Assembly: GCF_900104035.1 (NCBI RefSeq) | Contig: NZ_FNIT01000001.1 | Location: 62,001-126,000 of the forward strand | Direction of reading: 5' to 3' | Length of the DNA stretch: 64,000 nt | Origin: Aureimonas jatrophae | Lineage (GTDB): Bacteria; Pseudomonadota; Alphaproteobacteria; Rhizobiales; Rhizobiaceae | Shown here: positions 39,219 through 50,844 of the stretch, in pieces | How positions within the stretch are numbered: the first letter of the stretch is position 1 | Layout: each line of letters starts with the position of its first letter | Made by a program: the position numbers and the translations under genes | Notes under the pieces: model-generated | Told to the model about the DNA's origin: nothing | The model's input: the letters and a program-made list of their open reading frames with translations, nothing else | Database searches by the model: none

Positions 39219-40577
39219 TTATGCGCGGTGCAGCATCCGCGCCGATGCAGTGCCCTCGCTGCCGTCGCGCAGCCGCACGAAGTAGTCGTCGTCGCCGATC
39301 TGCCCGCCCTTGAAGGCGATCTCCAGTTCATCGAAGCCCGGCTCGTCGCTGTGGGCGCGGCACACCGGCGAGCCCGGCGTGTCGGGCAGCGGCAGGCGGG
39401 GGGTCAGGGCGAAGATGCCGAGCTCGCGCAGCGCGTGGCTGGACGTGTCGCCGCCTGCCACCACCGCCCGGTCCAGGCCGGCTTCCCGCACGAGGCGAGC
39501 CTGGAGCCGGCCGAGGCCTCGCCCGATCGCATGTCGCGCATCCGGCCCGCCGAGCTCCGCGCCAATATCGTCGGCGGGACCGAGCGCGGTGTGCACGACG
39601 ACGCTGCGGCCCGCCCCCAAATGCCCCAGCGCCAGCGACGCAACGCCGTCCAGCGCGGCCGCATCGCCGGCGGCCAGCGCGCGCGGATCGAGCGCGAGGG
39701 CGACGAAGCCCTGCGCTTCCGCGTGCCGGATCTGGCGCTCGGTGGTCGGCGAGCAGCTGCCCGAGACGACCGCGATGCGCTCGCGCGGGGCGAGCGGCGC
39801 AAACCGCGACGTGCCGCCGATCACCCCCGCCGACTGCCACGCGGCGGCGAGCGCGTATTCGACGCCCGACGAGCCGACCACGAAGCGCGAGCCGCGTCCC
39901 GCCAGCCGCCGGAGCTGCCGACCGGCCTCGGCCTGCGTCGTGCCGTCGAGGACATCGATCAGGATCGCGCCGGGCGCGGCGGCCAGCGCGGCGTCCACGG
40001 CCGCATCGCCCCCGTTCGAGAGCAGCGACGGAGCGTCCACCAGAGCCACCGGCAGGCTAGTCTGCGCGGCGAGGTGTCGGCGCAGGTCGGCCTCGCGCAT
40101 CGGCGTGACGGGATGGCGGCTCATCACGGGATGGCGGTCGATGCGGAACGTCTCGCCCCGAAACGCGGCATGGAGCTCGCCGAACGCGGTGTAGCGCCTC
40201 AGCTGCGGCGCGCCGACCACGATCGGCACCGGCGTGTCGGCAAAGACCGCGCGCCCGAGCTCCAGCGCCCGGCCGATGCTGCCGACGGCCGGCGCGGAGT
40301 CGAAGGTCGAGCAGACCTTGTAGTGCGCGATCTCGGCGCGCTGCGCTGCCATCCAGCGGAACACGGGGGGCAGGTTCGCGTCCATCCAGTCCGGCGTCTG
40401 GCTGCGGCTGGTGCCTGCGATGCCGATCGCGCGCAGGTTCTCGAAGCCGGCAAGGCGCTCGGGCGTCGGCACGTCGAGAAACAGCGCGGTCTCGACGCCG
40501 CGCAGCGCCAGCGCCTCCATGACGTCGGTGGAGCCGGTCAGGTCGTCGCCGTAGTAGGTGAGGAGAAGCGGGCTCAT
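39219..40577 (-). CDS. oiaK: 3-oxo-isoapionate kinase (four-carbon acid sugar kinase family)
   Basis: A 452-aa DUF1537 / four-carbon acid sugar kinase, predicted to make 3-oxo-isoapionate 4-phosphate with ATP. The N-terminal YYGDDLTGSTDVMEALALRG and the C-terminal ATP-site GGDTSSHALRELG are intact. The family contains kinases for threonate, erythronate and oxo-acid sugars. The assignment to apionate catabolism rests on the neighbours: an RLP overlapping by four bases (ATGA), plus apionate oxidoisomerase and lactonase genes nearby. The ATG at 40577 follows the RLP stop; upstream frame extension is a shadow. Confidence 0.78.
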   Translation of the reverse strand: MSPLLLTYYGDDLTGSTDVMEALALRGVETALFLDVPTPERLAGFENLRAIGIAGTSRSQTPDWMDANLPPVFRWMAAQRAEIAHYKVCSTFDSAPAVGSIGRALELGRAVFADTPVPIVVGAPQLRRYTAFGELHAAFRGETFRIDRHPVMSRHPVTPMREADLRRHLAAQTSLPVALVDAPSLLSNGGDAAVDAALAAAPGAILIDVLDGTTQAEAGRQLRRLAGRGSRFVVGSSGVEYALAAAWQSAGVIGGTSRFAPLAPRERIAVVSGSCSPTTERQIRHAEAQGFVALALDPRALAAGDAAALDGVASLALGHLGAGRSVVVHTALGPADDIGAELGGPDARHAIGRGLGRLQARLVREAGLDRAVVAGGDTSSHALRELGIFALTPRLPLPDTPGSPVCRAHSDEPGFDELEIAFKGGQIGDDDYFVRLRDGSEGTASARMLHRA

Positions 40578-41866
40578 GCGCCGTCTCCCGAGCCGAAGGC
40601 CGCCATCGAGGCGGCGAGCTCGGGATGGGTCCGGGCGTGATGCTCGAGGGGCACGCCCGCGACCGCGGCCTCCCAGGCGTCGCGCACGGCCCGCACGCCG
40701 CTGGCGGGCCCCATCGGGTGGCCGACGACGCCCCCGCCGCACAGGTACAGGAGGTCGGTCGTGCGCACCGCCTCGAAGGTCGCCGGTGCCTGCCCGCCCC
40801 ACTGACCCGAGCACACGACCGGCAGCGGCCGGTCGGCGGGCGAGAAGAGCGGCCGGTCCAGGGCGCGGAAGGAGCGCACGAACGAGTCGTCGGGCTCCCA
40901 GTACTTCGCGCCGATCCCGTTGATCTGGAACTGGTCGACCCCGAGAAGGCGCCAGAAGGTCTCGTAGACCGAGAAGTCGAGCCCGAGCGCGGGGTGGCGG
41001 GTCAGGATGTCCCAGCCGTTGCGGTGGGCGTGAAGCGCAAGGCTCGAGCGCTTCCTCAAGAAGCTCATGGCCCCCATGCCGACCGAGTTGATGTTGACCA
41101 CGGCGGCGTTGCCGCCGGCCGCCGCCACCAGATCGTGGTTGCGCATCATCGTGTCGGGATCGGTGGCCGAGATGCCGAAGGCGATCATGACCTTCTTGCC
41201 GGTGCGCTGCTCGTGGTCGAGCACGACAGGCATCACGGCCCGAACCCGCTCGGCGAGCGGCGAGTAGGCCGGGCTCATCAGCTTCTCGTCGTCCTTGATG
41301 AAGTCGACGCCCGCCTCCGCAAGCGCGCGCGTCATCGCGGCGCTCTCGTCGGGGCGAAGCCCCAGCGCAGGCTTCACGATGGTGCCGATCATGGGGCGCC
41401 CCTCGACGCCCATCAGGCGCTTCGAGCCCTCGATGCCGAACTGGGGGCCGGGCCACGCCTCGGCGAAGGCCGGCGGGAGTCTCAGCCCCGTGACGCGGAT
41501 GCCGCTGAAGCCCTTGATCGACCAGACGCCGCCGATGGCGATCGTCATCAGGGCGGCAAGGTCCGTGCCGACCGCCTCGAGCGGAAAGGCGATGTCGGCC
41601 TCGCCTCGGTTGAAGCGCCGGGCGTTGCGAAGGTCGTTATGCGTGCGGCCGAAGCCCGGCTCCGCCACCGGCTCCAGAGGACGGATCGCGACGACGCGCG
41701 CGGCGACGCGCGCCTTGAGCTCGGGCGTCTCGCCGGGCAGGGTGGTGAAGGTGCCGGTGGACTGGTCGCTCGCGATCTTGGCGGCCAGGCGCTCGACGCT
41801 GCCCGGCGTCTCGATCCGATAGGTCAGGACGATCTCGTCATTGGCAGCGTTCAAGAGATCCCTCAT
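40574..41866 (-). CDS. RuBisCO-like protein of apionate catabolism (OiaX or OiaT type)
   Basis: A 430-aa form IV RuBisCO-like protein. It keeps the carbamylated lysine and metal ligands (K191, D193, E194 in FIKDDEKL) and the K165 counterpart in GTIVKPALGL, with SDQSTGTF at 34-41. The loop-6 region reads VVCSGQWGGQ, without the lysine needed for CO2 fixation. In published D-apiose pathways such RLPs act on 3-oxo-isoapionate 4-phosphate, as a decarboxylase (OiaX, giving L-erythrulose 1-phosphate) or as a transcarboxylase/hydrolase (OiaT, giving 3-phosphoglycerate and glycolate). No erythrulose-phosphate isomerase gene is nearby, which mildly favours OiaT. It is transcribed with oiaK from a promoter bearing a NanR-like operator. 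Confidence 0.85.
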   Translation of the reverse strand: MRDLLNAANDEIVLTYRIETPGSVERLAAKIASDQSTGTFTTLPGETPELKARVAARVVAIRPLEPVAEPGFGRTHNDLRNARRFNRGEADIAFPLEAVGTDLAALMTIAIGGVWSIKGFSGIRVTGLRLPPAFAEAWPGPQFGIEGSKRLMGVEGRPMIGTIVKPALGLRPDESAAMTRALAEAGVDFIKDDEKLMSPAYSPLAERVRAVMPVVLDHEQRTGKKVMIAFGISATDPDTMMRNHDLVAAAGGNAAVVNINSVGMGAMSFLRKRSSLALHAHRNGWDILTRHPALGLDFSVYETFWRLLGVDQFQINGIGAKYWEPDDSFVRSFRALDRPLFSPADRPLPVVCSGQWGGQAPATFEAVRTTDLLYLCGGGVVGHPMGPASGVRAVRDAWEAAVAGVPLEHHARTHPELAASMAAFGSGDGA

Positions 41867-41894
41867 CTTTCAACGCGCGCGGCCGCGCCCAAGC

Positions 41895-41913
41895 TGGTAT
41901 CGTGATCATACCA
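41895..41913. promoter_or_regulatory. GntR operator between RLP and regulator genes
   Basis: TGGTAT (41895-41900) and ATACCA (41908-41913) form a 19-bp inverted repeat in the 76-base gap between the divergent RLP and GntR genes. The bottom strand reads TGGTATGATCA, nearly identical to TGGTATGATGA at 50811. A further GGTATGA (minus strand, 41935-41941) touches the regulator start codon. E. coli NanR, a related regulator, binds TGGTATA repeats. Confidence 0.72.
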
Positions 41914-41942
41914 AAACCGTTTCTCCATCGAGCGTCATACCC

Positions 41943-49753: not shown

Positions 49754-49769
49754 GTGAAAGGCGTTGCCG

Positions 49770-50699
49770 TCAGTCCTTGAGCGCGAAGGTCTCGAGCTTG
49801 GCCGCGTTGTCGGCGTTGATGAGGATGCAGTCCATGAGCTGCTTCTCCTCGGCACCGGTCTTGCCGGAGGCGAGATAGGTCTTGGCCTGCTCCACCGCGA
49901 GCTGGGCCTGCCGGTAGGCCGGCTGCAGGACCGTCGCCTTGATGCCGCCGGCCTTGATGGAGTCGCGCACGTCGTTGGAGCCGTCGAAGCCCACCACGAT
50001 CACGTCCTTGCGGCCGGCCGCCTCGAGCGCCGCCCAGGCGCCCATCGCCATCGTGTCGTTGCCGGAGATGACGCCCTTGATCTCGGGGTTGGCCTGCAGG
50101 ATCGTCTGCATCTTCTCGAAGGCTTCGGTCTGGCTCCAGTTGGCGGACTGCTGGGCCACCATCTTCATGTCCGGGTACTCGTCGATCACGTCGTGGTAGC
50201 CGCCCGAGCGAATACCGGCATTGGTGTCGGCCTCGCGGCCGAGAAGCTCGGCGTAGGGGCCGGCCTCGCCCATCAGCTTCACGAACTCCTCGGCGCCGAG
50301 CTGGGCGCCCTGATAGTTGTTGGAGACGATCTGCGAGACGGCGACGCCGGTCTCGTTGATTTCGCGGTCGATCAGGAAGGAGGGGATGCCCGCGTCCTTG
50401 GCCTTCTGCACCGCCGCCGTGGTGGCCGCCGCGCCCGCGTTGTCGAGGACGATGGCCTTGGCGCCGCGCGCGATCGCCGTGTCGAAGAGCTGGTTCTGCT
50501 TGTTGGCGTCGTCGTCGTGGACGAGCACGAGCGGCTCGAAGCCGAGCTCCTTGGCCTTGGCCGCCGCGCCTTCGGCCTCAGCCTTGAAGAACGGGTTGTC
50601 GTGGCTCGGCGTGATGATGGCGATGAGGTCCGCAGCCGAGGCCGGCGCGGACGACAGAACCGCAGCCGACATCGCCGCGAGCATGAACTTCCTGAGCAT
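49770..50699 (-). CDS. Sugar-binding protein (RbsB type), probably D-apiose
   Basis: Periplasmic binding protein of 309 aa. The signal peptide ends at APASA-AD. The ribose-binding-like fold shows [48 protein letters not shown] and [16 protein letters not shown]. The ATG at 50699 gives a normal signal peptide; the frame is open upstream without homology. It leads a seven-gene operon ending in apnL. D-apiose as ligand is inferred from the operon, since RbsB-like proteins bind many pentoses. Confidence 0.9.
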
Positions 50700-50810
50700 G
50701 ACGATCCTCCCGAACCGTGCGCCGCTGGCGGGCCGTTTCGACCTCGCGTCGCCGCACGGCGATCTCCCCAAAACAGGGCGACCTTCCCATTCCGCTGGCG
50801 AGTCGTCAAC

Positions 50811-50829
50811 TGGTATGATGACATCATCA
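50811..50829. promoter_or_regulatory. GntR operator before the apiose transport operon
   Basis: TGGTATGATGACATCATCA contains GGTATGA (50812-50818) and a perfect inverted repeat ATGATG-A-CATCAT (50815-50827). The half-site TGGTATGATGA matches the one near 41904 at 10 of 11 positions. It lies 112 bases upstream of the binding-protein ATG, in the promoter region. Confidence 0.68.
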
Positions 50830-50844
50830 ATTAGACAGAGCCGC

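Follow-up and report, generated by a model that had tools for sequence, protein, structure and literature searches.

A 64,000-nucleotide stretch of the Aureimonas jatrophae genome (contig NZ_FNIT01000001.1, positions 62,001 to 126,000; hereafter the window) contains ten open frames that appear to form a locus for import and catabolism of D-apiose, a branched plant cell-wall sugar. Nine of the genes lie on the minus strand, in the order solute-binding protein (SBP), DUF2291 lipoprotein, two-domain ATPase, permease, ApnO, ApsD, and ApnL, followed by a pair encoding a RuBisCO-like protein (RLP) and OiaK; the tenth, for a NanR-like regulator, separates ApnL from the RLP gene and is read from the plus strand, convergent with the former and divergent from the latter (Table 1). 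Genes overlap by 4 bases at DUF2291-ATPase, ATPase-permease, and RLP-OiaK, as in translationally coupled operons, and conservation of synteny in 80 named relatives indicates that the arrangement is not due to chance. A preliminary description had listed these ten genes, and all ten are present with family matches.

Table 1. Predicted genes and sites of the putative D-apiose locus (window coordinates; E, expectation value)
Feature	Position	Strand	Evidence
SBP, D-apiose-type (predicted), CUT2, Peripla_BP_4	49770..50699	-	PF13407, E 2.8e-60
DUF2291 lipoprotein, LPGC lipobox, DxDxDG loop, predicted importer accessory	49051..49692	-	PF10054, E 1.1e-56
Two-domain CUT2 sugar ABC ATPase	47507..49054	-	PF00005, two stretches; best family E 4.4e-151
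CUT2 permease	46443..47510	-	PF02653, E 6.3e-42; best family E 2.3e-77
ApnO, putative D-apionate oxidoisomerase	45584..46411	-	PF16896, E 4.8e-76
ApsD, putative D-apiose dehydrogenase (Gfo/Idh/MocA)	44543..45571	-	PF01408 and PF22725; best family E 3.9e-24
ApnL, predicted D-apionate lactonase	42644..44536	-	NF049900, E 7e-252
NanR-like GntR/FCD regulator, predicted repressor of both operons	41943..42656	+	NF003011, PF00392, PF07729; E 1.2e-97
RLP OiaX, predicted 3-oxo-isoapionate-4-phosphate decarboxylase	40574..41866	-	NF042437, E 3.6e-229
OiaK, putative 3-oxo-isoapionate kinase	39219..40577	-	NF042436, PF07005, PF17042; E 2.1e-134
Candidate operator TGGTATCGTGATCATACCA, regulator/RLP gap	41895..41913	.	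29.9 bits; region in matrix training
Second candidate operator, about 112 bases before SBP start	50811..50829	.	20.3 bits; outside matrix training
Terminator-like hairpin between SBP operon and upstream ABC-2 genes	50853..50884	-	14-pair stem

A composition-based gene pick recovers seven of the ten genes (RLP, regulator, ApnL, ApsD, ApnO, permease, and SBP); for OiaK it chose a frame on the opposite strand, and it covered the ATPase and DUF2291 genes with a longer frame, so these three gene calls rest on family matches. The start codons are ATG 40577 for OiaK, which overlaps the stop of the RLP gene, ATG 49054 for the ATPase, and ATG 41943 for the regulator. The locus had been drawn to 50830, but the SBP gene most likely starts at ATG 50699, where there is a signal peptide, and 50700-50830 would therefore be promoter region. 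Given the terminator-like hairpin ahead of the operon, the transcription unit probably starts between the hairpin and 50699. A scan for sigma-70 promoters at the SBP promoter found none.

The RLP, which is the sole PF00016 match in the genome, scores 760.6 bits against the curated OiaX model (NF042437, cut-off 700). Two other assignments were rejected: true RuBisCO (225.2 bits against a cut-off of 497.45 for the type III model), and methionine-salvage enolase (145.7 against 409 bits). When 101 genomes, 21 of them in the genus of the window, were scanned with the OiaX model, the matches fell into two high score classes, 730.6-783.4 and 381.4-439.7 bits, all others scoring at most 228 bits; the cut-off is passed in 26 of the 101 genomes, 18 of these (the window's own included) being among the 21 of the genus. 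All 14 aligned rows keep K165, K191, D193, and E194, the residues at the carbamate, metal, and lysine positions of RuBisCO. By the curated model the RLP is OiaX and its product should be L-erythrulose 1-phosphate, and what had been described as "cleavage" of 3-oxo-isoapionate 4-phosphate is better stated as decarboxylation. Five genomes of the same genus (L147, L150-L153) carry in addition an RLP of the second score class, 42-43% identical, with a relative of OiaK or ApnO nearby.

The make-up of the locus is common. Our sample comprises the best 80 of at least 574 confirmed relatives, with RLPs 69-82% identical to that of the window; these are the closest of those confirmed, mostly Rhizobiales genera by name together with some uncultured bins, and since many are closely related the counts that follow are not independent. 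At E 1e-10 over half the query, and with some loci cut by contig ends, the RLP (the query, 80) is accompanied by OiaK in 79, NanR in 76, ApsD in 74, ApnL in 71, ApnO in 68, the permease in 63 and the ATPase in 62 (both totals including a few paralogues), and the SBP and DUF2291 in 59 each. The exact gene order of the window recurs in 5 of the 80 (L059, L063, L064, L065, L067). In a set of 20 wide loci of relatives that overlaps the 80 it is seen 6 times, and 6 of the 11 genomes of the same genus in that set have no importer genes beside the enzymes. The locus thus looks like an ordinary member of a widespread kind. The route of strain K84, which together with both RLP activities reportedly goes back to Carter et al. 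2018, has an OiaX-kind RLP and the same enzyme set as the window. K84 is a strain of Rhizobium rhizogenes, and in two other loci of that species standing in for it (L103 and L114, RLPs 70% identical to that of the window) the regulator, RLP, OiaK, ApnO, SBP, DUF2291, ATPase, permease, ApsD, and ApnL are all present. The order there is regulator, RLP, OiaK, ApnO, then SBP to ApnL, whereas in the window the regulator separates the RLP and OiaK from the operon running from the importer to ApnL.

If the RLP is OiaX, the route also needs an L-erythrulose-1-phosphate isomerase (LerI) and a D-erythrulose-4-phosphate isomerase (DerI), and the locus cannot be "complete" as first described: neither LerI nor DerI was found within the window. 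Genome-wide there are two matches to the triose-phosphate isomerase (TIM) family and one to the RpiB family, all on contigs other than that of the window. The LerI candidate is one of the TIM paralogues: it shares 57-64% identity with five of the six operon-borne LerIs tested, 40% with the sixth, and 36% with the other TIM of the same genome; the RpiB-family gene passes the DerI model (NF051858, 261.3 bits against a cut-off of 240). The two candidates are about 83 kb apart on one contig (C5). That for LerI adjoins a class II fructose-bisphosphate aldolase gene; next to that for DerI (L056:3868-11001) are two DeoR-type regulators and a further CUT2 importer that has a DUF2291 of its own, perhaps a locus for uptake of a tetritol or erythrulose. 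Thus the route can close, as judged from gene content, but with isomerases encoded elsewhere in the genome. Among the 80 relatives LerI is linked in 22 and DerI in 21, with the order OiaK-LerI-DerI-ApnO in 13. Neither is linked in any of the 17 loci of the second RLP class from the scan of 101 genomes (two of them shorter than 20 kb, and one with an in-frame stop in its RLP); for LerI the difference (22 of 80 against 0 of 17) gives a Fisher p of 0.010, which is only a guide, relatedness being uncorrected and the groups non-independent. This pattern fits decarboxylation to L-erythrulose 1-phosphate.

A competing view of the RLP is that it is of the transcarboxylase/hydrolase type, the locus then being complete with neither LerI nor DerI. 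Both decarboxylation (Agrobacterium radiobacter K84) and transcarboxylation/hydrolysis (Xanthobacter autotrophicus) of 3-oxo-isoapionate 4-phosphate are published, according to PMC6302742; the X. autotrophicus RLP acts on the substrate predicted for the RLP of the window, but the predicted product differs, and the RLP of the window passes the OiaX model. No model of the second activity is among the six families that NCBIfam gave for the RLP, so our test could not have selected it, and LerI and DerI are unlinked both in the window and in ten Aureimonas and Mangrovicella loci. The enzyme of this second type, OiaT, yields 3-phosphoglycerate and glycolate. Set against these points, the OiaX model is exceeded at 760.6 bits where the second class reaches only 381-440, and LerI and DerI stand between OiaK and ApnO in 13 loci of the OiaX class, while neither occurs in any of the 17 loci of the second class; we therefore consider a transcarboxylase/hydrolase very improbable and retain OiaX.

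The enzymes upstream of the RLP in the predicted route are supported unevenly. ApnL scores 837.2 bits against a curated NCBIfam cut-off of 750 (NF049900). ApnO has a PGDH_C domain and matches the solved protein 5t57 with E 5.9e-133; it is a putative D-apionate oxidoisomerase. ApsD is a Gfo/Idh/MocA protein that passes no NCBIfam equivalog model; the name, which follows the preliminary description, rests on linkage. No apiosidase (PF13204) was found in the genome.

The importer has the family matches of a CUT2 system: a Peripla_BP_4 SBP (PF13407), an ATPase with two PF00005 stretches, and a BPD_transp_2 permease (PF02653). The SBP is 82% identical to, and shares the fold of, Rhizobium etli RHE_PF00037 (4ry0), and matches 5ibq, the sequence of which equals 4ry0 over the aligned part, with E 9.1e-152; for the protein of the window the ligand is a prediction. 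The Rhizobium phaseoli SBP of locus L104 aligns to 5ibq almost without difference, and L104 has the full gene set, which makes it very likely that the solved protein comes from a locus of this kind. The ATPase resembles AraG, XylG, and RbsA, scoring below their equivalog cut-offs. One could argue that the importer serves another pentose such as ribose, apiose being only one of several substrates, since the NCBIfam family that the SBP matches best, although below cut-off, is RbsB, and its solved relative bears the label of a ribose transporter protein. We think this quite improbable, because most of the 80 loci join the SBP and ApnL to an OiaX-type RLP and ApnL and OiaX are pathway-specific by curated models. 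The assignment to D-apiose made in the preliminary description is thus supported by the two curated cut-offs, by the 82% identity of the SBP to RHE_PF00037, and by conserved linkage.

The regulator scores 326.3 bits against the NanR subfamily model of GntR/FadR regulators (NF003011, cut-off 260), and a 19-bp inverted repeat, TGGTAT-N7-ATACCA, present at both promoter regions of the locus is a candidate operator for it. In 75 regulator-RLP gaps (that of the window and those of 74 relatives), which also served to train a scoring matrix, the best match has 11 or 12 of the 12 fixed positions in 59, while 1,500 mononucleotide-shuffled gaps reach at most 10. In most Rhizobium-type gaps the left half is TGGAAT and the spacer itself is conserved, and relatedness therefore contributes to conservation of the site. 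The matrix finds just two sites of at least 6 bits in the 64-kb window, those of Table 1; of ten shuffled windows, three contain one such site each, the best at 9.3 bits. Among the 80 loci, sites of at least 12 bits lie before the RLP gene in 73, and outside the training gaps there are 60 before ApnO (one of them shared with LerI), 5 before the SBP, and 3 before ApsD; 11 sites are not followed by any query gene, and no site is present in 6 loci. A genome-wide pattern search gave no further match with fewer than 3 mismatches. Escherichia coli NanR binds a (GGTATA)3 operator (PMC8012715). It shares the NF003011 subfamily and a GGTAT half-site with the regulator of the window, but acts in a different pathway; the conserved site here is an inverted repeat with a 7-base spacer and not the (GGTATA)3 repeat of NanR proper. 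The sites could instead bind another factor, or be inherited promoter remnants, with the NanR-like protein acting elsewhere: they are predictions, those in the gap between RLP and regulator trained the matrix, and, with close relatives among many of the loci, the counts are not independent. Their recurrence outside the training gaps (before ApnO, SBP, and ApsD) and the similarity of the half-site to the E. coli NanR operator (PMC8012715) nevertheless make this unlikely, and we favor control by the NanR-like protein.

We read the locus as two repressor-controlled units for D-apiose import and for catabolism by the OiaX route, the isomerases lying elsewhere, and would put the probability of this reading at roughly 0.87. 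D-apiose would enter through the CUT2 ABC importer (SBP, lipoprotein, ATPase, and permease); ApsD would oxidise it to apionolactone, ApnL would convert apionolactone to D-apionate, and ApnO would convert D-apionate to 3-oxo-isoapionate; OiaK would phosphorylate the latter and OiaX would decarboxylate the product to L-erythrulose 1-phosphate, from which LerI and DerI could supply the pentose phosphate pathway with D-erythrose 4-phosphate. The NanR-like protein would bind TGGTAT-N7-ATACCA at both promoters and release it upon encountering an apiose-derived compound. The intermediates are those of the published route. Whereas family membership, linkage, operator-like sites, and the presence of LerI- and DerI-like genes can be read from the sequences, we infer substrates, flux direction, repression, and inducer.

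Several observations weigh against this reading: i) ApsD, ApnO, the SBP, and the importer each fall below every NCBIfam equivalog cut-off, so their substrates rest on solved relatives and linkage; ii) 5ibq is reported to have been crystallised with D-apiose, but its listings name just a probable ribose ABC transporter, and apiose is absent from the main text of a paper that mentions 5IBQ; iii) OiaK, at 448.6 bits, is under the curated cut-off of 700 (NF042436); iv) NCBIfam names the LerI candidate triose-phosphate isomerase; v) the linkage of LerI and DerI comes from other genera, none of the ten loci closest to the window (L058-L067) showing it; vi) no operator-like site of at least 4 bits was found in the 18 kb and 11 kb around LerI and DerI, respectively; and vii) the SBP-side site has 3 mismatches, a level reached by chance here (8 matches against 5 in the control). 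As to iii), the OiaKs of four relatives (L059, L068, L103, L104), linked to RLPs 70-81% identical to that of the window, likewise score 453-475 bits, and with four of four relatives tested missing the cut-off we did not adopt the miss as an argument against the pathway. As to iv), NCBIfam gives the same name to two of three operon-borne LerIs scanned, the third being below cut-off. As to vi), inclusion of LerI and DerI in the regulon by way of the operator was rejected.

We wish to emphasize that the pathway is already published; what is new here is its placement in another genus, the corrected end product and completeness, and the leads offered by operator and lipoprotein. The preliminary description held that the arrangement, lipoprotein, and regulator had not been studied together. 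We likewise found no paper on the regulator or the lipoprotein in an apiose role, nor any on apiose with Aureimonas or on D-apiose with ApsD, yet relatives commonly carry this gene set. Completeness of such a locus is best judged genome-wide, as the last two isomerases can lie elsewhere, and two predictions are directly testable: an apiose regulator-operator pair, and DUF2291 as an accessory lipoprotein of sugar ABC importers.

The DUF2291 protein scores 192.3 bits against PF10054 (gathering score 22.5). Sequence searches against solved proteins found none of note (two weak unrelated chains, E 0.12 and 1.8). Foldseek, given an AlphaFold2 model with a predicted local distance difference test score (pLDDT) of 86.7, returned as best match Thermotoga maritima TM0957 (2f4i), an OB-fold protein, with E 1.1e-7 to 2.5e-7 and TM-score 0.62-0.74; the two are 17-18% identical, and a sequence profile did not detect the match. 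T. maritima also encodes a member of PF10054, probably TM0957 itself, which would lie near the ribose importer. Of 200 genomes drawn from the whole phylum, 13 carry PF10054, and each of the 15 places listed (two in the genome of the window) has a CUT2-type sugar ABC ATPase gene within 1.5 kb. In a DUF2291 alignment (A2), 28 of 31 rows carry a D-x-[DN]-x-[DN]-G motif. A DxDxDG-type loop occupies the same place in four further members that lie beside SBPs 78-81% identical to that of the window, and is present in none of ten other members, where SBP matches, when seen, are 45-69% identical; the link between this calcium-type loop and apiose is one of association, not function. We advance as a tentative proposal, more apt to prove wrong than right, that the lipoprotein is a true periplasmic subunit of some CUT2 importers, kept from Thermotoga to Rhizobiales, that the apiose type gained a DxDxDG loop tuning delivery, and that together with an apiose repressor and its 19-bp operator this makes an importer type with an extra part. 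A search of one literature library found no paper naming DUF2291.

Other transport genes accompany the locus in some relatives. In two Rhizobium loci (L094:16655-20643 and L099:16616-20604) ApnL is followed by Dak1/Dak2 kinase genes and a CUT1-type importer (families Pfam-tested in L094 only), perhaps a replacement importer together with an erythrulose kinase; the fetched stretch contains no CUT2 importer, and the CUT1 binding protein is directly preceded by an operator-like site (18.4 and 23.5 bits). The fetched part of an Aureimonas altamirensis locus (L058:12637-17597) also lacks a CUT2 importer; there, OiaK is followed by an MFS transporter and a TRAP-type binding protein. In the window itself, a second sugar-import set adjoins the locus at 33963-39011, consisting of an SDR dehydrogenase, a CUT2 permease, a single-domain ATPase, a XylF/ChvE-like SBP, and an AraC-type regulator, all below equivalog cut-offs; this binding protein and this regulator also lie next to the locus in L040.

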